A DNA stretch of 47,072 nucleotides from Acidobacteriota bacterium (lineage in GTDB: Bacteria > Acidobacteriota > Thermoanaerobaculia > Gp7-AA8): positions 1 through 47,072 of the forward strand of contig JAJXWV010000088.1 in assembly GCA_021781455.1 (NCBI GenBank). Reading direction: 5' to 3'. The notes beneath the pieces are model-generated. The model was not told the DNA's origin and searched no databases. It was given only the letters and a program-made list of their open reading frames with translations. Shown here one piece after another: positions 1 to 45,492 of the stretch; position 1 is the first letter of the stretch, and every line of letters starts with the position of its first letter. Both the position numbers and the translations under genes were made by a program.

Positions 1-175
1 CATGCTGTGGTGGATTGACATACAGCCCGATCACGTCGGTGGCCTTGGTTTCAAAATCGGGATCGTCCGACGCCATGTACCGCGCGATACGGTGCGGCTT
101 CAGATTCGCGCGCCTCCACGCCGTGGCGATGACCGAGTGGCTCACGCCCAGCTTCTTGGCGAGCTTCCTCGTTAG
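1..175 (-). pseudogene. IS630-family transposase fragment
   Basis: The complement strand, read from about 171 down to 1, gives an uninterrupted stretch that includes TRKLAKKLGVSHSVIATAWR, then NLKPHR, and ends DVIGLYVNPPQH at the window edge. This matches the helix-turn-helix and linker of IS630/Tc1-type transposases, where a 'GVSH..V...WR..GLKPHR' segment precedes a 'D..GLYLNPP' segment. No start is present, and the reading frame is lost upstream of about 175, so only an inner piece is left here; the DDE catalytic part would lie off the left edge. It faces the opposite way to the cassette genes and appears to have cut into the first cassette. Confidence 0.72.
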
Positions 176-429
176 TGCGCACCGTCTCACTGATCGACGT
201 GCCCGTGGCTATCTTCGGCCTGGTTGCGCCAGCTCAGGTTCGTGACCGCGCGGTCGACGTCTACATGCAATTCTTCGGCTACGGTTCGACCCGATTCTGT
301 TTCGGCATACCGCCGGGAAACCTCTGGGGTCATCTTTCCGTAGCAGTGCCCGTGTGGATAGCGATCCTGGCAACGCCCGGGCTGCTTGCACTCGCTATCG
401 GTCGGACACGGTCTCGGCCGGCTAACTAG
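175..429 (+). pseudogene. Probable 3' remnant of a cassette-1 membrane-protein gene
   Basis: An open frame runs into attC site 1 and stops at the TAG just after its R'' box (C-terminus RPAN), as several other cassette genes do. The last 30 residues hold one hydrophobic segment (VAVPVWIAILATPGLLALAI) followed by a basic tail, suggesting the end of a membrane protein. The left boundary coincides with the IS630 fragment, so the true start is probably lost; GTG at 175 is only the first available start. An antisense reading with several Cys residues also exists, but cassette genes normally run towards attC. No family is recognised. Confidence 0.35.
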
Positions 430-525
430 CGCCTACACCGGACCCGGCCCGCTTCGTTCCTGCGTGCCAGCTGGGTTACCATTTCGCGTCGCGGGCCGGG
501 CCGGTGAGGCGCGGGTCCGTTGGGC
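420..525 (+). repeat. attC recombination site 1
   Basis: 106 bp. R'' is GGCTAAC (420-426) and R' is GTTGGGC (519-525), with crossover expected after G519. The inner arms CACCGG and CCGGTG pair, and the left arm carries an unpaired A before CCCGGCCCGC, the extrahelical base typical of folded attC. It ends the cassette interrupted by the IS630 remnant. Confidence 0.93.
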
Positions 526-529
526 GGCT

Positions 530-994
530 ATGAACGTCTTGATCGCGGCGATCCTCCTGACCGCGGCTACTACGCCCGGACCACTTGATCGCCTAAACGT
601 AAACCCTCGTGGCGTCTCATGGGGTCCTTTCGAGATATTCGCATCGCACTCCACGGTTGAACGCAGACTGGGACGTCGGCTTGTGATCACGAAGAAACCG
701 TACGTAGAAGCGTGCGGCTCCGGTGCCAGCCGCACCACGTTCGCGGGTAGTCGCGTTCGCATGAAATGGTCGGACGACGCGAAGCACGAACTCGAGGCCT
801 TTTTCGTCGTTCTGCCACGAAACAGTAAGCGGAGCGACCTCGTTCGGGAACTCGCAGCGCGCGCAGGGCTGAACGCTAAACCATGCGGTCCCGCGCCGGG
901 TGATTGTTACGAGCATCCGGCGGGGATAACGCTGTTGCTCACCGACGATCGTGAGCCCGTCGAGCTGTGGGTCGTAATCTCGAACTGTTTCTAG
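530..994 (+). CDS. Cassette 2: small secreted protein of unknown function
   Basis: 154 residues. The ATG is 4 bases after the R' box of attC 1, so there is no room for a normal Shine-Dalgarno site inside the cassette, and the frame stays open back through attC 1. Residues 1-15 (MNVLIAAILLTAATT) look like a short signal peptide. The rest is soluble and mixed, with Cys in 'EACGSG', 'AKPCGPAPGDCYEHP' and the C-terminal 'ISNCF', which could form disulfides after export. No known family is recognised. It is the only gene in its cassette and ends just before the R'' box of attC 2. Confidence 0.7.
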   Translation: MNVLIAAILLTAATTPGPLDRLNVNPRGVSWGPFEIFASHSTVERRLGRRLVITKKPYVEACGSGASRTTFAGSRVRMKWSDDAKHELEAFFVVLPRNSKRSDLVRELAARAGLNAKPCGPAPGDCYEHPAGITLLLTDDREPVELWVVISNCF

Positions 995-996
995 CC

Positions 997-1102
997 GGCT
1001 AACGAGCGCCTGCAGCGGACCAGGCCCGCTTGGCAGCCGCACGGCAACTTGGCTACCATTGCGCGTCGCGGGCCGGGCCGCTGAGGCGCAGGTCCGTTGG
1101 GC
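997..1102 (+). repeat. attC recombination site 2
   Basis: 106 bp. R'' is GGCTAAC (997-1003) and R' is GTTGGGC (1096-1102). The stem uses CAGCGG/CCGCTG instead of CACCGG/CCGGTG, a compensated change relative to site 1. It is the one cassette end whose R'' does not match the R' at the start of the same cassette, although the next bases outward (TAGCCG) still do. Confidence 0.93.
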
Positions 1103-1110
1103 GGCCGAAC

Positions 1111-1452
1111 ATGTTCGGTTGGAAGAAGAGATCGCAACAACCGCGCGAGCGGACCAACCGGTGCTCGTTCTGCAATAAGTCACAGCACGACGTCGCGAAG
1201 ATGATCGCAGGTCCGAACGTGCAGATCTGCGATGAGTGCGTTGAGATCTGCGTCGACGTTCTTGCCCCCGAGAGGCCGCAAGGAAAGAGAAGCACACCGG
1301 CATCGGAGCAACCGGAGCACGCCCTGTGGTGCAGTATCTGCCGCCTCCAGGTCCCACTCGCCAGCTCGCTTGCCGTTCCTGACCGTGGGTATCTCTGCCG
1401 GGAGTGCGCAGCAGCCGTGGCGGCCGCTTTGGGCTGGCGGCCGCCCAACTAG
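1111..1452 (+). CDS. Cassette 3: stand-alone ClpX-type double C4 zinc-finger protein
   Basis: 113 residues. Residues 18-46 hold [18 protein letters not shown] followed by CDECVEIC, the C-x2-C-x18-C-x2-C zinc-binding domain found at the N-terminus of the ClpX unfoldase. A second, shorter module (CSIC ... CREC) fills the C-terminal half. There is no AAA+ ATPase domain. In ClpX this domain dimerises and binds adaptors and substrates, so a free copy could act as an adaptor, decoy or inhibitor of ClpXP; that role is inferred. The ATG lies 9 bases after R' of attC 2. The last residues (RPPN) and the TAG stop are encoded by the R'' end of attC 3. Confidence 0.85.
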
Positions 1453-1548
1453 CGCCTGCACCGGACGCGGCCCGCTCGGCAGCCGCATCGCAAGTGCGTT
1501 ACCATTCCGCGTCGCGGGCCGCGCCGGTGAGGCGCGGGTCCGTTGGGC
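1443..1548 (+). repeat. attC recombination site 3
   Basis: 106 bp. R'' is GCCCAAC (1443-1449) and R' is GTTGGGC (1542-1548), fully complementary. The inner stem has CGCGGCCCGC on the left and GCGGGCCGCG on the right, another paired change relative to site 1. R'' and the bases before it (GGCCGCCCAAC) are the reverse complement of the start of the same cassette. Confidence 0.93.
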
Positions 1549-1833
1549 GGCACGAGGAGGTCGGTCGGTGGGTTCCTGTCGGCCAGCCCACCACGACTTT
1601 TCGGACATACCCGGGAGGTACGACGAGGAGCCGATTCCAAAATTTAGTTCTCCCCTCCGGCGCTATCATCGCCACTTCATGGCCTCGCTCCGTGCCGCGA
1701 TCATCGTGAAGCCGGATTCCGGAAAGAGACCTCAACGTTGGGCGGCACGCCTCAGGCACATCGGCGGGCAACCCGCTGTTAACCTTTGTGCTCGCCGCCC
1801 GTAACTGCTCACGATACGACCTGGGGAGAAATC
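1549..1833 (+). other. Long non-coding 5' region of cassette 4
   Basis: 285 bases between attC 3 and the hydrolase start contain no convincing gene: frames crossing it are continuations through attC or lack a start. A solitary R'-like heptamer GTTGGGC followed by GGCACG sits at 1737-1743, repeating the first bases of this cassette. It has no R'' partner at a suitable distance, so it may be a scar of an older cassette junction. No clear promoter was identified. Confidence 0.45.
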
Positions 1834-2922
1834 ATGAAATACAGAGCGGATGCCTTCTTCGCGGTGTGCTGCACGCTCCTGCTCAGGATGGCAGAAGCGA
1901 CAGCGGCAGCACCAGGAGCGCCCGCCCCCTCCGCGCCGCAACCCGTGAAGGAAGAAATGTTCGTGCGCATCGGGGGCATCGACCAGTGGCTCACGATCGA
2001 AGGAAAGAATCGCGAGAATCCGGTTGTGCTCTTTCTGCACGGCGGACCGGGAGACGCGTACAGTCCGTTTGCTGCTGCGCTTTTCCACGGATGGGACAAA
2101 GGTCTCACACTCGTGCAGTGGGACCAGCGCGGCGCGGGCAGAACATACGGGAAGAGCGGCCCATCAATCGAGCCGACGATGACCGTCGCCCAAATGGTCC
2201 AGGACGGTGTCGAGGTCGCCCAGTTCCTGACGAAGCACCTTGAAAAGAAAAAGATCATCATCTGCGGTGGTTCGTGGGGCTCGATGCTCGGTATCTATCT
2301 GGCCCATGCTCGGCCCGACCTGTTCTACGCGTACGTCGGCGATGCTCAGATGGTGAACTGGCAGAAGAACGTGGGCGCGAGCTACATGCGCGTGCTCGAA
2401 CTGGCGCGCGCCGCTGACGATCGGCCCGCAATCGCAGCACTGACGGCAATCGGGCCACCACCCTGGAGCTCGCTCGCGAAGTGGCCTCAATTCCGAAAGT
2501 GGCAACGCGCCTATCAGGCGAAGACGGCGACTGCGGCGGCACCGGATATGACACGTAGTCCCGAATACGATTCGCCAGAGGAGCGGGCACAATACGCGGC
2601 GGCCGACGACTTCTCGTTTCTGCATTTCGTGGGAATGACGATGTCGGGCCCCATCACGCGGGTCGATCTTCCGTCATTGGGAACCGACTTCGCGATTCCA
2701 ATCTTCATGATTCAAGGAGAAGAGGACCTGGTCGCTGTGCCTGAGTTGGCGAAATCGTATTTCGACACCATCAAAGCGCCGCGGAAGCGATTCTATCTGG
2801 TGCCGGGGACCGGCCACGAGCCATCGGTGCCCGAGCTTTCTCTGATCCTCAAGATCCTCACTGACGAAGTGCGGCCCCTAGCTCGGCAAGGTGGAGGACG
2901 AGGCTCAGCGCCGCCCAACTAG
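1834..2922 (+). CDS. Cassette 4: exported alpha/beta hydrolase, proline iminopeptidase-like (S33)
   Basis: 362 residues. The ATG was chosen because GGGGAGAA lies just upstream and a signal-peptide-like stretch follows (residues 1-25, ending ATAAA). The mature part has the S33 oxyanion motif HGGPGD, then WDQRGAG, the nucleophile elbow GGSWGS (Ser), the acid in 'GEEDLV' and the catalytic His in 'GTGHEP'. This is the layout of proline iminopeptidases and related alpha/beta hydrolases; the real substrate cannot be read from sequence. It is exported or periplasmic by inference. The last three residues (PPN) and the stop come from attC 4. Confidence 0.85.
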   Translation: MKYRADAFFAVCCTLLLRMAEATAAAPGAPAPSAPQPVKEEMFVRIGGIDQWLTIEGKNRENPVVLFLHGGPGDAYSPFAAALFHGWDKGLTLVQWDQRGAGRTYGKSGPSIEPTMTVAQMVQDGVEVAQFLTKHLEKKKIIICGGSWGSMLGIYLAHARPDLFYAYVGDAQMVNWQKNVGASYMRVLELARAADDRPAIAALTAIGPPPWSSLAKWPQFRKWQRAYQAKTATAAAPDMTRSPEYDSPEERAQYAAADDFSFLHFVGMTMSGPITRVDLPSLGTDFAIPIFMIQGEEDLVAVPELAKSYFDTIKAPRKRFYLVPGTGHEPSVPELSLILKILTDEVRPLARQGGGRGSAPPN

Positions 2923-3104
2923 TGGCCTGTATTGGTTGAATTGGTACCAGTGGCGCCGGCGTCGAGACCAAGCCAGGTGGTACCAATTCAGCCGATACAG
3001 GCCACTAGCGCCTGCACCGGATCCGGCCCGCTTCGTTCACGCAGCCTAACTGGGTTACCATTTCGCGTCGCGGGCCGTGCCGGTGAGGCGCAGGTCCGTT
3101 AGCC
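2913..3104 (+). repeat. attC recombination site 4, interrupted by a small palindromic element
   Basis: 192 bp as found. R'' is GCCCAAC (2913-2919) and R' is GTTAGCC (3098-3104). Removing the 86-bp insertion beginning right after R'' restores exactly 106 bp and a normal attC. The inner stem CACCGG/CCGGTG is intact, with one unmatched position further in. Extrusion of the bottom-strand hairpin may be disturbed by the insertion. Confidence 0.9.
2919..3008. mobile_element. MITE-like palindrome inserted in attC 4
   Basis: An 82-bp body (2923-3004) begins TGGCCTGTATTGG and ends CGATACAGGCCA, forming terminal inverted repeats of about 28 bp with a few mismatches. It is flanked on both sides by CTAG (2919-2922 and 3005-3008), while the other eight sites have at most one CTAG there, so CTAG is probably the target duplication. 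It encodes nothing. A matching end without its partner occurs at 36325. Confidence 0.75.
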
Positions 3105-3140
3105 GGCGCTCGGCTGCAGGAAGGCGCCAACAAAGGCCTC

Positions 3141-4466
3141 TTGATCGTGGCTAAACTCTGGGCTGTCGCGCACACAAGACTCCTGAACGCAGTGGTGTCG
3201 GCTCAGATACCGGAGTTTTTGTCCCACAACTTCGTCCAACGTCGTACCTGGATTGCCGCGCTCACGTTCGCGCTCCTGCCGTTGCTCGCAACAAGCGGTT
3301 CCGCCCTACTGATCGCGAAGACTCGAAATCGCGCGGCACGGAGCACTCTGGCGTTTCTCTCCTCCGCAGTTGTGACGATTGTTGCATCGGCTACTGCGCT
3401 TCTGTACGCCTTGCTCTGCACGGCCGGATGGTCGGACTGGGCTGCTAACGGAAGCTATCTTCTCGATTTCTATCACCAGGCGCGGGTTGCTCTCGCCATA
3501 GGCGTTGGGTCGTCGCTGATCGCGGCTGTGGTCGGCGTTCTCTCAATTCTATTTGCCCACGACTACCACCGCCGGCCTCGGCTCTCTATCTCGTGGGTCT
3601 TCGTCTTGGCAGCGGCAGGTAGTGCAGCGCTGGCACTCCGCACGGTGGGTAGTTTGGAAGACTTTCTCTTAAACTCCACGGCCGCGCTCGACGCCAACGC
3701 GTTCGTCGCGGCCCGGCTGAGCGCGATTGCATCGGCACTCACTCTCGCGATTGCGACGAGCCTGTCCGCCCTCGCTGCGGCGGGCTTGGTCTTCGCGCTC
3801 AATCGTAGGCGCCAGCCAGCGGAGAAGGAATCCAGTCTTTGGGTGCTTATGCCCGGCCTCTCGCTTCTGTTTCTCGCCTCGTGCGCCGTACTGGAATACG
3901 GGCGTTTCGACGCCTTTTACGCTCTCCGATCTCGCCCCGTCACGAACCAGTGGGTGCCGGAGGATCTCATCAGGCTCGCAGGCGCGCGTCACGTGTGGTC
4001 ACGCTATGAAGAAGACCATCAACTGTTGGAGTACACCCTAGCTGCCGAATATCCCGCTCCCAGCGTGATTGACAGTCTGTCCGACAGGCTTGTCGCGCGA
4101 GGGTGGCGACCTCTGGCCAACGACTGGTACACCCCTTCGGAACCATCCGGATTCGTTCGCGGGTGGCAGCGCGAGCCGGTCGATCTCGCGGGTGCGATAC
4201 GACTGTCCTGGAGCGCACAATGGAAGAACGCTCGCGGCGAACTTCTCAACTGCGCGTTGGGGTACGTGCCGCCGACCGGCGTCGAGACTCGCGGGTGTTC
4301 TCGATACGATTCGGCGGGCGCTCTCGATACTTCCTCGCTCCACGTCTTTTTCGAAAAAATGAGCGCGACTGAGGTCGGTCGGTACGGTTCTTCTTCAGCC
4401 GCTTCGAGGGCCGCGATCCCGCTCCTGAGTCCAGAAGCGCGACCCAACACACAGCCGGCACCCTAA
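3141..4466 (+). CDS. Cassette 5: six-helix membrane protein with soluble C-terminal domain
   Basis: 441 residues from a TTG start; an internal start is possible, as no strong ribosome site is visible. Six hydrophobic segments lie at roughly 37-60, 69-95, 115-138, 147-167, 190-218 and 233-250. About 190 soluble residues follow, rich in Trp and aromatic residues (for example 'RGWRPLANDWYTP' and 'GFVRGWQRE'). The soluble part may sit outside the membrane and holds two Cys (LLNCALGY, ETRGCSRY). No family is recognised. This is one of the largest cassette genes here. It ends 66 bp before attC 5. Confidence 0.7.
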   Translation: MIVAKLWAVAHTRLLNAVVSAQIPEFLSHNFVQRRTWIAALTFALLPLLATSGSALLIAKTRNRAARSTLAFLSSAVVTIVASATALLYALLCTAGWSDWAANGSYLLDFYHQARVALAIGVGSSLIAAVVGVLSILFAHDYHRRPRLSISWVFVLAAAGSAALALRTVGSLEDFLLNSTAALDANAFVAARLSAIASALTLAIATSLSALAAAGLVFALNRRRQPAEKESSLWVLMPGLSLLFLASCAVLEYGRFDAFYALRSRPVTNQWVPEDLIRLAGARHVWSRYEEDHQLLEYTLAAEYPAPSVIDSLSDRLVARGWRPLANDWYTPSEPSGFVRGWQREPVDLAGAIRLSWSAQWKNARGELLNCALGYVPPTGVETRGCSRYDSAGALDTSSLHVFFEKMSATEVGRYGSSSAASRAAIPLLSPEARPNTQPAP

Positions 4467-4532
4467 CGGCTGCAAATTTTGCCTAAGTGCTGCGCGAACC
4501 GTCAACCGCTCATTCTTCGGCCATTTCGCGCC

Positions 4533-4638
4533 GGCTAACGAGTGCCTGCAGCGGACACGGCCCGCTTCGTTCCAGTCTCCCAAGTGCGTTACACTTTCGC
4601 CTCGCGGGCCGTGCCGCTGAGGCGCGGTTCCCTTGGGC
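4533..4638 (+). repeat. attC recombination site 5 with altered crossover base
   Basis: 106 bp. R'' is GGCTAAC (4533-4539); R' reads CTTGGGC (4632-4638), so the G at the cleavage point has become C. The stem is CAGCGG/CCGCTG and the inner arms CACGGCCCGC/GCGGGCCGTG pair exactly. R'' and its outer bases mirror the start of cassette 5 (GCGCCGGCTAAC). Confidence 0.92.
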
Positions 4639-4645
4639 GGCTGTG

Positions 4646-5020
4646 ATGCTCAAACTTTGGGAGATCGGCGAAGACGTAAAACGCAGGCGCTGCGCTGAGG
4701 CGGAAGTAGAGCCGCAGCATCATTGCTGCCTGGACATGGCGTTTGCGATCGCGATGCCGATCGTCACCGAACATCAGGGTCCGTCCCGAAAAGTCGACTG
4801 GTCTGCCGCTTGGAACGAATACCGCGTGCCGGTTGCCCACGATGGGCATACGGCGGCACAGCTGAGATACTGCCCGTTCTGCGGCGCCTCGCTCGGACCA
4901 TCCTTGGCAGACGAGTGGTACCAACGGCTCTACGCGCTTGGATACGCCGACCCGGGAGAAGAGAAGGTACCTTCGGAATTCCAGAGCGACTCTTGGTGGC
5001 GGAAACAGCCGCCCAACTAG
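4646..5020 (+). CDS. Cassette 6: small zinc-ribbon protein, DUF6980-like
   Basis: 124 residues. The features recall a small bacterial family (tentatively DUF6980): an N-terminal 'HHCCLDM' pair of Cys, a central 'NEYRVPVAHDG' strand segment, a 'YCPFCGASL' zinc-knuckle motif, then 'DEWYQRLYALGYADP' and a closing 'PSEFQSDSWW'. Metal binding by the four Cys is likely; the function of the family is not known to me. The ATG is 7 bases after R' of attC 5, leaving no ribosome site inside the cassette. The C-terminal PPN and TAG come from attC 6. Confidence 0.7.
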   Translation: MLKLWEIGEDVKRRRCAEAEVEPQHHCCLDMAFAIAMPIVTEHQGPSRKVDWSAAWNEYRVPVAHDGHTAAQLRYCPFCGASLGPSLADEWYQRLYALGYADPGEEKVPSEFQSDSWWRKQPPN

Positions 5021-5116
5021 CGCCTGCACCGGACCCGGCCCGCTTCGTTCCCGCATGCCAGCTGGATTACACTTTCGCGTCGCGGGCCGGGCCGGTGAGG
5101 CGCGGATCCGTTGGGC
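5011..5116 (+). repeat. attC recombination site 6
   Basis: 106 bp. R'' is GCCCAAC (5011-5017) and R' is GTTGGGC (5110-5116). The stem pairs throughout, with one extra A on the left arm. The end of cassette 6 (ACAGCCGCCCAAC) is the reverse complement of its own start except for the mutated base of attC 5. Confidence 0.93.
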
Positions 5117-5148
5117 CGCACGAGGAATTTGACAGAAAGGCATCCACG

Positions 5149-5346
5149 ATGAAGCGTGAGATTGTTGCTGCTTTGGCGTTCTTTGGACTTGGCATGCTCC
5201 TCATGCTTGCTGGGGTTCTGCCGATGTTTCGCGGCCACTCGATGAACGTTATCTTCTTTGCACTTGGTGCGTTTTGGATCATCGTAGCAATCGCTGTTGC
5301 GGGCAAATTGCGTAAGCCGTCGCCCGATGCCGCCCAGGTCAAGTGA
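5149..5346 (+). CDS. Cassette 7: 65-residue two-helix membrane protein
   Basis: Start ATG at 5149, preceded by AGAAAGG. Two hydrophobic segments (about residues 6-26 and 33-52) are joined by a short loop with 'FRGHSMN', and the protein ends in a basic, hydrophilic tail (KLRKPSPDAAQVK). This is a typical small integral membrane protein with both ends probably on the same side. No family is recognised. About 70 bp without a gene separate it from attC 7. Confidence 0.65.
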   Translation: MKREIVAALAFFGLGMLLMLAGVLPMFRGHSMNVIFFALGAFWIIVAIAVAGKLRKPSPDAAQVK

Positions 5347-5418
5347 CGAGCGCGAAGCGATTCGGCAGTTGTGAGTTCCGTCGGCACGCCCTAAGGTCGT
5401 GAGTTATTCTGGCGTGCG

Positions 5419-5524
5419 GCCCAACTAGCGCCTGCACCGGCCGCGGCCCGCTTCGCAGCCGTACTCCAAGTGCGTTACACTTCCGGATCGCGGGCCGCGC
5501 CGGTGAGGCGCGGGTCCATTAGCC
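5419..5524 (+). repeat. attC recombination site 7 with altered crossover base
   Basis: 106 bp. R'' is GCCCAAC (5419-5425); R' reads ATTAGCC (5518-5524), so the conserved G is A. Inner arms CGCGGCCCGC/GCGGGCCGCG covary, and the extra base on the left arm is C instead of A. The end of cassette 7 (CGTGCGGCCCAAC) is a 13-base reverse complement of its start. Confidence 0.92.
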
Positions 5525-5529
5525 GGCAC

Positions 5530-5751
5530 GTGCTTAAGCCATCGTGGAAGAGAGTCTTCGCAGTACTCGTCGGCATATCTTGCGTGGCAACCGTCACCGG
5601 CTACGTCTGGGGAGTACGAGCGCAAACGAACGACCCGATGGGTGGCTGCTCCGGCGCCATGCTCCCATTTGTTCTGCTCTGCGCTTCCGGCATTTGCTTG
5701 GGCAGTCGCGGCCTTGGTCGCATCAGCGCGCACATCCGGGCGTGCGGCTAA
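5530..5751 (+). CDS. Cassette 8: 73-residue membrane protein
   Basis: The best start is GTG at 5530, 5 bases after R' of attC 7. The protein begins with a basic 'KPSWKR', then a hydrophobic helix (about residues 9-25), a polar loop with 'TNDPMGGCSG' and a second hydrophobic helix (about 44-58, 'MLPFVLLCASGICLG'). It ends at the TAA inside the R'' box of attC 8. No family is recognised. The close fit between R' and R'' leaves almost the whole cassette coding. Confidence 0.55.
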   Translation: MLKPSWKRVFAVLVGISCVATVTGYVWGVRAQTNDPMGGCSGAMLPFVLLCASGICLGSRGLGRISAHIRACG

Positions 5752-5851
5752 CTAGCGCCTGCAGCGGACATGGCCCGCTTGGCAGCGGCATTGCGACTTG
5801 GTTACTATTGCGCGTCGCGGGCCAGGCCGCTGAGGCGCGGGTCCGTTAGGC
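5746..5851 (+). repeat. attC recombination site 8
   Basis: 106 bp. R'' is GGCTAAC (5746-5752) and R' is GTTAGGC (5845-5851). The outer stem is CAGCGG/CCGCTG, with one mismatch in the inner arms. The TAA of its R'' box is the stop codon of cassette 8. Confidence 0.93.
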
Positions 5852-5870
5852 CGCCATCCCAGAGCGCAAG

Positions 5871-6308
5871 ATGATCGAGTTCTTCACTGGTTCCGAAAAG
5901 GGCCCCGACCGGTATCACAACGAGGACCGATACTGGGTGTCGGCCGATCGGCGTCTTTGCGCAGTATTGGATGGGTGCGGTGGCCGCGGGATCGTTGCGG
6001 ATCTTGTGGTCGAGAGCCTTGCAAGACAGTTCGGGTCTGCCGAGTCAGAGATTGGTTTCGAGAGCCTCCTCGTAGCCGTTCAGCACGCCAACACGGAGGT
6101 AGTGGAGCAGATGCGAACTAGGTCGGAAGGTCGCGGGAGTGGCACCACTCTTGACCTCCTCGCATTCGTCGGCTCGGAGCTGGTCGGCATCCATGTCGGA
6201 GACGGGCGGGTCTACCTGCTTAAGCCGGCAGTCGCCATCGAGAAAATCCTTGCACGAGCTGCTGCTTCACACGACAGCGGGACCATCGTTGTCGCAGCCG
6301 TATATTAG
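5871..6308 (+). CDS. Cassette 9: shortened PP2C-like phosphatase
   Basis: 145 residues, against about 240 for a normal bacterial PP2C domain. The first half is well kept: 'RYHNEDRYWV' (metal-binding Asp), 'VLDGCGG' in place of the usual DGMGG, then 'GSGTTLDLLAF' and 'HVGDGRVYLL' (usually GDSR). After 'VYLL' the chain jumps to 'SHDSGTIVVAAVY', which resembles the final 'DN.TVVVV' strand. About 70-90 residues carrying the LT-DHS and 'SDGL' metal-site motifs appear to be missing. The simplest reading is an in-frame internal deletion, leaving a catalytically weak or dead phosphatase, possibly a phosphopeptide or partner-binding protein. Confidence 0.75.
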   Translation: MIEFFTGSEKGPDRYHNEDRYWVSADRRLCAVLDGCGGRGIVADLVVESLARQFGSAESEIGFESLLVAVQHANTEVVEQMRTRSEGRGSGTTLDLLAFVGSELVGIHVGDGRVYLLKPAVAIEKILARAAASHDSGTIVVAAVY

Positions 6309-6320
6309 TTAGCAAAGGTG

Positions 6321-6426
6321 GCCTAGCTAGCGCCTGCAGCGGACCCGGCCCGCGTGGCAGTGGCAGGGCAGTTTGGCTACCATTTTGCGTCGCGGGCCGT
6401 GCCGCTGAGGCGCGGGTCCGTTAGCC
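6321..6426 (+). repeat. attC recombination site 9 (last complete one)
   Basis: 106 bp. R'' reads GCCTAGC (6321-6327), one base off RYYYAAC, and R' is GTTAGCC (6420-6426). The outer stem CAGCGG/CCGCTG pairs, with one mismatch in the inner arms. R'' matches the reverse complement of the GTTAGGC that opens cassette 9 except at the mutated base. Confidence 0.9.
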
Positions 6427-6474
6427 CGCCGCGACCGGAACAACGCACCCGGCGTCCCGTGTTACGCTTCAAGC

Positions 6475-36206: not shown

Positions 36207-36324
36207 GCGTCACCCGAGTCACGATATCGATCGAGGCAGTGTAATACGAAACTCCGATCGACGGCGAGGCGGGACTACCCAGGGAACTCATGTGCCAGAC
36301 CGTGTGCCACTTCTCTCGGTGTAA

Positions 36325-36343
36325 CTAGCGGCCTGTATCGGCC
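36325..36343. repeat. Solitary end of the attC 4 palindromic element
   Basis: CTAG followed by CGGCCTGTATCGGC repeats the reversed right end of the small element in attC 4 (CTAG then TGGCCTGTATCGGC), one base apart. No partner end is found, so it may be a deletion remnant. Confidence 0.55.
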
Positions 36344-36361
36344 ACCAGTCGATGCGACACT

Positions 36362-36480
36362 TGTCATCCCGAGCGTCAGCGAGGGATCTGGGCGGTCGGG
36401 CGGCGCCTAACATGCGCAGTTTCAGCATGTTTGGTGCGCCACCCACACTCCCAGATCCCTCGCTGACGCTCGGGATGACA
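36362..36480. repeat. Element with perfect 31-bp inverted ends
   Basis: The left end (36362-36392, begins TGTCATCCCGAGCG) and right end (36450-36480, ends CGCTCGGGATGACA) are exact reverse complements around a 57-bp centre. The remaining intergenic sequence (36207-36324, 36481-36550) shows nothing coding. A 21-bp piece of the right end recurs at 42658. Confidence 0.9.
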
Positions 36481-44553: not shown

Positions 44554-45492
44554 ATGAAGCTCACCGTCGGCTCTGTGAAGATCGTCGAGGTCGGGCCTCG
44601 TGACGGGCTGCAGAACGAGAGAGTCACGATTCCGACCGAGGCGAAGATCGCTTACATCACGGCTCTCGCCGACGCGGGATTGCGCGTCATCGAGGCGGGC
44701 GCGTTCGTCAGCCCGAAGTGGGTCCCGCAGATGGCCGACACGGCCGAGGTCTATGGCGAGATCCCGAAGGACCCGGGCGTCGACTATCCGGTGCTCGTCC
44801 CGAACATGCGCGGGCTCGAGCGCGCCCTCGAAAGCGGTGTCAAGTCGATCTCGATCTTCACCGCAGCCTCCGATACCTTCAACAAACGCAACATCAATAA
44901 GACGATCGACGAGGCATTCGAGAATTACGTGCCGGTCATGGCGCGGGCCCGCAGCGAGGGGATGCGCATTCGCGGTTACGTCTCGACGGCCTTCGGTTGT
45001 CCCTACGAGGGCGATGTGCCGCCCGAGAAGGTGCTGGAGGTCTGCGCTCGTCTCCTCGACCTCGGCTGCTACGAGGTCTCCGTCGGCGACACGATCGGCG
45101 TCGGCACTCCCATGCAGGTGCAGGGTGTCATCGGCATTCTTCGGCAGGTCATTCCGGCCTCGAAGCTGGCCATGCACTTCCACGACACCCGCGGCACCGC
45201 CCTGGCCAACACGCTCGCCGCCCTGGAGATGGGCATCTCCGCCTTCGACGCATCCTCAGGCGGATTGGGCGGCTGCCCGTACGCGCCGGGAGCGTCCGGA
45301 AACCTGGCGACCGAGGATTTGATCTATATGCTCGACCACATGGGAATCGAGACGGGCGTCGACATCCGACGCCTGGTGAAAGCATCCATGGTGATCGCAC
45401 CGCACCTCGATCATCCCCTTCCGGGCCGTTATCTCCAGGCCTGCATGCGGGCCGCCGCTCCGGTGAGCGTGCCGAGCACTGCCGTACAATGA
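44554..45492 (+). CDS. Hydroxymethylglutaryl-CoA lyase
   Basis: 312 residues. The TIM-barrel carries 'IVEVGPRDGLQNE' (metal Asp), 'VIEAGAFVSPKWVPQMADT', 'ISIFTAASDTFNKRNIN', 'DTIGVGTP', 'LAMHFHDTRGTALAN' (metal His pair) and the active-site loop 'GGLGGCPYAPGASGNLATED' with its Cys. It splits HMG-CoA to acetyl-CoA and acetoacetate in leucine breakdown. The neighbouring biotin carrier supports this. No signal or extra domains. Confidence 0.94.
   Translation: MKLTVGSVKIVEVGPRDGLQNERVTIPTEAKIAYITALADAGLRVIEAGAFVSPKWVPQMADTAEVYGEIPKDPGVDYPVLVPNMRGLERALESGVKSISIFTAASDTFNKRNINKTIDEAFENYVPVMARARSEGMRIRGYVSTAFGCPYEGDVPPEKVLEVCARLLDLGCYEVSVGDTIGVGTPMQVQGVIGILRQVIPASKLAMHFHDTRGTALANTLAALEMGISAFDASSGGLGGCPYAPGASGNLATEDLIYMLDHMGIETGVDIRRLVKASMVIAPHLDHPLPGRYLQACMRAAAPVSVPSTAVQ

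Follow-up and report, generated by a model that had tools for sequence, protein, structure and literature searches.

MITEs are usually viewed as a pair of ends with little of importance in between. The autonomous element IS630 of Shigella inserts into the TA of 5'-CTAG-3' (Tenzen and Ohtsubo 1991, as cited in PMC2170065), and ISY100 duplicates TA (PMC2170065). RUP, a 107-bp MITE of the pneumococcus, is moved by IS630-Spn1, and the Correia/NEMIS elements of Neisseria occur as a 155-bp form with a functional 50-bp internal segment (an IHF site) and as a 107-bp form without it (PMC2229807). Mobile DNA that recognises the attC itself is known from the IS1111-attC group (PMC11187229) and from the group IIC-attC introns (PMC7923331). 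No paper on a MITE in an attC was found in the open-access literature. Here we describe such an insertion in a stretch of 47,072 nucleotides (the window), which is contig C3 of the 4.88-Mb draft genome of an Acidobacteriota bacterium.

The window contains nine attC-like sites at about 420-6430, and the site of cassette 4 is interrupted between its R'' and L'' boxes by an insertion that reads CTAG-TGGCCTGTATTGG...CCGATACAGGCCA-CTAG from 2919 to 3008 (Table 1). When 86 bp are taken out, a normal attC like the neighbouring sites is obtained. The site has both R'/R'' and L'/L'' boxes and a bottom-strand hairpin, and an integron integrase is encoded in the genome, as expected of an attC. The inserted 82-bp imperfect palindrome folds into a single long hairpin of -35.3 kcal/mol, compared to a shuffle mean of -10.8 (z -11.4), and none of 200 shuffles was equally good. 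At the exact insertion point, six of the eight other sites carry an empty CTAG (AACTAGCGCC or GCTAGCGCC) and two read CGAG, so that the empty-site comparison, for which an earlier reading of the DNA made without database searches (the sequence-only reading) had counted all eight, applies to six. That reading had a mini-palindrome jump into the attC with a duplication of CTAG, the 86-bp excess being an 82-bp inverted-repeat body plus one CTAG. The arithmetic is correct and the clean empty sites next to the insertion bear out the jump; however, an 84-bp body plus TA is equally valid, and the sequence alone gives no choice between the two. The ends of cassette 4 are mutually complementary (TTGGGCGGC at 1543 and GCCGCCCAA ahead of the insertion), indicating that the insertion lies within a mobile cassette, and the R' and R'' types of adjacent cassettes are mixed, as expected for recombined cassettes.

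Table 1. Features of the interrupted attC, its surroundings and related elements (window positions unless a contig is given)
Feature	Position	Strand	Remarks
IS-B fragment, IS630-family transposase gene	1..175	-	at contig end adjoining the cassette array; protein 79% identical to IS-A
Empty CTAG in neighbouring attC	426..429	.	others at 1449, 5017, 5425, 5752, 6327
Gene cassette 4	1543..3098	+	own ends match: TTGGGCGGC at start, GCCGCCCAA at R''
ORF of cassette 4, alpha/beta hydrolase (Hydrolase_4/Abhydrolase_1)	1786..2922	+	
Interrupted attC of cassette 4	2913..3104	+	R'' GCCCAAC 2913-2919; L'' from about 3008; L' to about 3092; R' GTTAGCC 3098-3104
CTAG, target copy on left	2919..2922	.	TA at 2920-2921; TAG at 2920-2922 doubles as stop codon of the ORF in the cassette
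MITE copy of 82 bp, derived by deletion from the 158-bp element and lacking the core	2923..3004	.	alternative limits 2922-3005 (84 bp) if TA is duplicated
CTAG, target copy on right	3005..3008	.	TA at 3006-3007
Decayed remnant of this MITE, 16 bp, CTAG-CGGCCTGTATCGGCCA-CCAG	36325..36348	.	inserted in another repeat
IS-A, complete CTAG-bounded IS	C46:1-1112		352-aa IS630-family transposase
IntI, integron integrase gene	C41:1113-2186 (L257)		TIGR02249, 468 bits; adjoins attC sites, on a contig other than that of the window array

The palindrome in the attC is a shrunken copy of a MITE of which this bacterium has dozens of copies. There are 16 complete copies of 158 bp within contigs (one with a 10-base assembly gap and one of 159 bp); a further 16 are truncated at contig ends, C77 has half a copy, and the 82-bp form occurs once. 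As one break can yield two ends, the cut copies represent 8 to 16 further insertions. The sixteen contig ends that stop within the MITE (C2, C8, C23, C24, C28, C36, C52, C54, C56, C57, C61, C65, C66, C70, C81 and C87) indicate that the MITE itself breaks the assembly. All its flanks in the source genome are CTAG, most copies are 99-100% identical, and 158 bp are too short for a transposase gene, so the element has the multiple near-identical copies without a transposase gene that are typical of a MITE. The family was also found in the same genus and the same family of bacteria. The sequence-only reading had proposed a search for further copies and for a parent element with TGGCCTGTA ends and a CTAG target; the search found both the dozens of copies and an identifiable parent lineage of that kind, described below.

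Compared to a full copy, the window copy lacks 76 bp, including a core at positions 55-106 of the 158-bp MITE. The breakpoint lies at a CGG microhomology (two CGG triplets), with GCGCCGG joined directly to CGTCGAG in the window versus GCGCCGGGATCGGCG...CACGGCGTCGAG in full copies. The matching end that had been noticed at 36325 proved to be real kin, namely a short remnant of the same MITE family, and full copies occupy the same point of its host repeat elsewhere in the genome (L011 and L023). This other palindromic repeat (TTGTCATCCCGAGCG..AGCGAGGGATCT type; window 36300-36480, L011 and L023) has been struck by the MITE at AACTAGT at least three times.

Loss of the middle of the MITE is recurrent. 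In a sister genus (G004), elements with the same ends include core-less palindromes of 40, 46, 46, 54, and 54 bp, four flanked by CTAG and one by GTAG/TTAG, as well as copies with one core (162 bp) and with two (272 bp), the size series lying mostly at CTAG. The 46-bp forms are collapsed on GGTACC, which is found in both arms. Two loci of this genus (L301 and L302) are 46-bp CTAG-flanked palindromes that consist almost solely of the two end repeats. Such recurrent core loss is what would be expected if slippage at short repeats deletes hairpins.

The source genome encodes CTAG-bounded IS630-family elements. IS-A has CTAG-bounded inverted repeats, and its transposase matches NF033545 (E=1e-76, 258 bits versus a cut-off of 100) and DDE_3 (PF13358; E=3e-25), placing it in the IS630 family, while a second element, IS-B, is collapsed across the contig ends C26, C43, C48, and C81. 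The MITE end TGGCCTGTATTGGTTGAATTGGTACCAG shares 23 of 28 bases with the end TGGAGTGTATTCGTGGAATTGGGACCAG of IS-B from the same genome and 26 of 29 with the end TGGCCTGTAATGGTTGAAATGGTATCAGT of L180, a complete IS from the same class, which has CTAG-bounded ends and is assigned only by the 69% identity of its transposase to that of IS-A. The terminal inverted repeats are thus common to the MITE and IS630-family ISs, as in an IS630-derived MITE. An intact IS with exactly TGGCCTGTATTGG ends was not found in the source genome, and for this reason we infer the mobilising transposase. The IS-B fragment at the contig end may have rearranged the cassette array. On C48, an IS-B copy (L058, 1-640) abuts a half attC of which only the 3' half is present, another instance of an IS630-type element adjoining an integron site.

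By analogy with the insertion of IS630 into the TA of CTAG and the TA duplication by ISY100, the duplicated bases are more likely the TA within the CTAG target than CTAG itself, and on this point the sequence-only reading is probably to be amended. Among two-sided copies over several genomes, 28 of 36 are flanked by CTAG on both sides and the remaining flanks look mutated; as nearly every flank is CTAG, TA and CTAG duplication look alike here. The CTAG on both flanks would equally suit an IS5-type MITE that duplicates all four bases, like MITEPsy1 of Pseudomonas syringae, which duplicates CTAG or YTAA (PMC3189936). However, the end repeats match IS630-family elements to the extent given above, and the genome contains a single match to DDE_Tnp_1 (PF01609; IS4/IS5-type), on C4; we consider an IS5-type origin unlikely. 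No match to an IS701-type transposase (PF13546) was detected in the source genome.

Because attC sites carry it, CTAG is frequent in the cassette array (13 in 6.5 kb); otherwise it is rare. The genomic density, estimated from 395 kb, is about 0.129 per kb, which corresponds to about 630 CTAGs per genome, 4-5% of them occupied. A second attC insertion, a full-length copy, lies at the same CTAG of another attC, on C81, where one side only is assembled, and thus two of the 13 attC CTAGs are occupied (P 0.09-0.14 versus the overall rate). That two attCs were hit at the same CTAG could mean that the element belongs to integron biology and has attC as its specific target, as do the IS1111-attC group and the group IIC-attC introns. 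Yet this occupancy is not measurably above the genome rate, on which ground we rejected preferential targeting; roughly 25 to 30 further copies are found away from attC sites, and three insertions occurred at one site of an unrelated repeat (window 36325, L011 and L023). We regard specific targeting as highly improbable. Judging from these rates, the attC is a target of opportunity for the IS630-type MITE, hit because it holds CTAG.

The sequence-only reading had suggested that the insertion may block excision of cassette 4. When the attC bottom strand was folded with DNA parameters, the L stem was the same with and without the insert (P 0.92 in both cases) and the R stem was retained with it, the MITE being predicted to form an independent side hairpin and hence a three-way junction. 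Folding does not support a block to excision, and the attC of cassette 4 is probably still foldable with its insert. The hairpin might also be a terminator or an mRNA-stabilising structure of the cassette gene, kept for expression, as it begins right after the stop codon of the hydrolase ORF. However, that stop codon falls at 2920-2922 because the attC supplies CTAG, no T-run follows the hairpin, and the same element occurs in unrelated contexts, so we give this explanation very little credence; a side effect of the hairpin on the mRNA is possible, though this is not why the hairpin is there. Movement of a REP/REPIN-like palindrome by a tyrosine transposase of the RAYT kind would suit the short palindrome and the many copies but is the least credible reading of all. 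REP/REPINs are RAYT-associated and make no duplication, and REPs are defined by an unpaired tag (GTAG or CGTC) at one of their ends (PMC3733652); the MITE lacks this tag, makes a flanking duplication (CTAG or TA), and has long terminal inverted repeats in common with a DDE element.

We are highly confident in the following account as a whole. Given the observed sequence, empty sites, copies and shared ends, an IS630-family transposase would have cut and pasted a non-autonomous IS630/Tc1-mariner-type MITE into the TA of CTAG in the R''-L'' spacer of the attC, with TA as the presumed duplicated bases. Replication slippage across the hairpin, before or after landing, would have removed the segment between the two CGG triplets at the observed breakpoint; it would have taken the structured core with it and left the two end repeats back to back. 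The attC would have been struck for its CTAG and not for being an attC, as the rates suggest. On the attC bottom strand, the computed fold predicts that the MITE should extrude as a separate hairpin while the R and L stems stay paired, and the cassette, probably still foldable, would carry the MITE along when moving. The insertion provides a natural test of whether the integron integrase tolerates a hairpin in the spacer beside its cut site.

The attC insertion is a well-explained case of an IS630-type MITE; the wider finding is the core that is shared among MITE families. The core is conserved and recurs in elements with quite different ends. An exact-pattern scan of named genomes gave 68 core loci, in Acidobacteriota, Planctomycetota, Desulfuromonadales, Gemmatimonadetes, Fibrobacteria, and once in Chromobacterium, the last locus having no clear terminal repeats. 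Besides Acidobacteriota, at least four other phyla carry the core. Among 396 genomes of Acidobacteriota, a covariance model built from 21 core sequences (cut-off E <= 1e-4) detected it in 66, which belong to 45 of 210 genera, often in many copies. Core-bearing loci include L072 (1538-1620), L108, L120, L209, L213, L218, L305, L307 and others. In the window, a partial match to the model at 45049-45088 (E 0.005) was taken as chance. The core-bearing elements have at least seven end types, namely CTAGTGG..TGTA (the window MITE family), TGTCCCGTGCGG, GGGCCCGTCCGGGAATAA, GGAGCCTGTCCGAG, CAGCCCGTGGCGG, CAGGCTGCTGAGAAAC, and GTACCCCGCTCCACAAA, and their target duplications are TA/CTAG or TWA. In the GGGCCC end type, the duplications are clean and 3 bp long (TTA or TAA; 12 identical pairs); they differ from CTAG/TA and so suggest that different transposases are involved. 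Where the ends of a single-core element are clear, the modelled core lies about 40 bp from each of them, regardless of the end type.

The exact 31-base MITE-end pattern was absent from 84,980 named genomes, and neither the palindrome pattern nor the core pattern was present in viral contigs. Likewise, we found no MITE in phage records and no core in plasmid records. A search of Rfam 15, including relaxed thresholds, gave no relevant match for the core, and searching the open-access literature for its exact sequence strings returned no paper.

Three stems that covary make up the core, together with an internal-loop motif that occurs twice, once inverted relative to the other. Among 78 aligned cores, two-sided changes were observed in 25 of 26 pairs, 90.6% of cells pair compared to 62.2% in shuffles and at most 52% with partners slid, and the covariation score was 0.656 versus 0.180, in an alignment that was fitted to the model and so leans toward it; in an unfitted MAFFT alignment of 21 sequences, the score was 0.539 versus 0.199. 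G-U pairs outnumbered A-C pairs by 56 to 10 (p 7e-9; 39 clusters at 80% identity), indicating that the fold is kept on one strand, either as RNA or as ssDNA with G-T wobble. There is little variation in the unpaired positions. In loop A, AAGGC faces AACGMM, and in loop B, GACGMM faces GAGGA; the two resemble a single asymmetric internal loop (RACGMM facing RAGGM) that is present in both orientations, with five base pairs in between. The strict form at all four places was found in 43 of the 78 cores, with most of the others one base off. In double-core elements, the second core is inverted and the sides of its loop B are often swapped.

Taken together, the covarying stems, the fixed loops, the single strand, the differing ends and duplications and the spread over at least five phyla suggest that something reads the fold of the core. 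We lean, by a modest degree, toward the core being an undescribed functional single-stranded module (RNA or ssDNA), a shared accessory part lying at a constant spacing of about 40 bp from ends that belong to different transposase families, which would be kept, lost and exchanged by otherwise unrelated MITEs across phyla. Identification of such a reader, which might be a host RNA- or ssDNA-binding protein, a nuclease, or a replication or transposition factor, would show how these elements multiply in very different bacteria.

Among known systems, IS630 and ISY100 are like the lineage described here in their preference for 5'-CTAG-3' and DDE transposase, and probably in their TA duplication (PMC2170065), but they are autonomous ISs, whereas the window MITE is non-autonomous. 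RUP is likewise small and non-coding, with ends matching those of an IS630-family element and a TA-containing target; it differs in length, host and ends, and no such conserved core is described for it (PMC2229807). The core aligns like the structured RNAs of Rfam, with covariation and invariant internal loops, though it matches no family of Rfam 15. The IS1111-attC group and the group IIC-attC introns also reside in attC, but they recognise the attC itself while the MITE recognises CTAG. The Correia/NEMIS elements have the same design, occurring with and without an internal segment, and they differ in ends, host and the nature of that segment, which in the MITE is a covarying structured motif.
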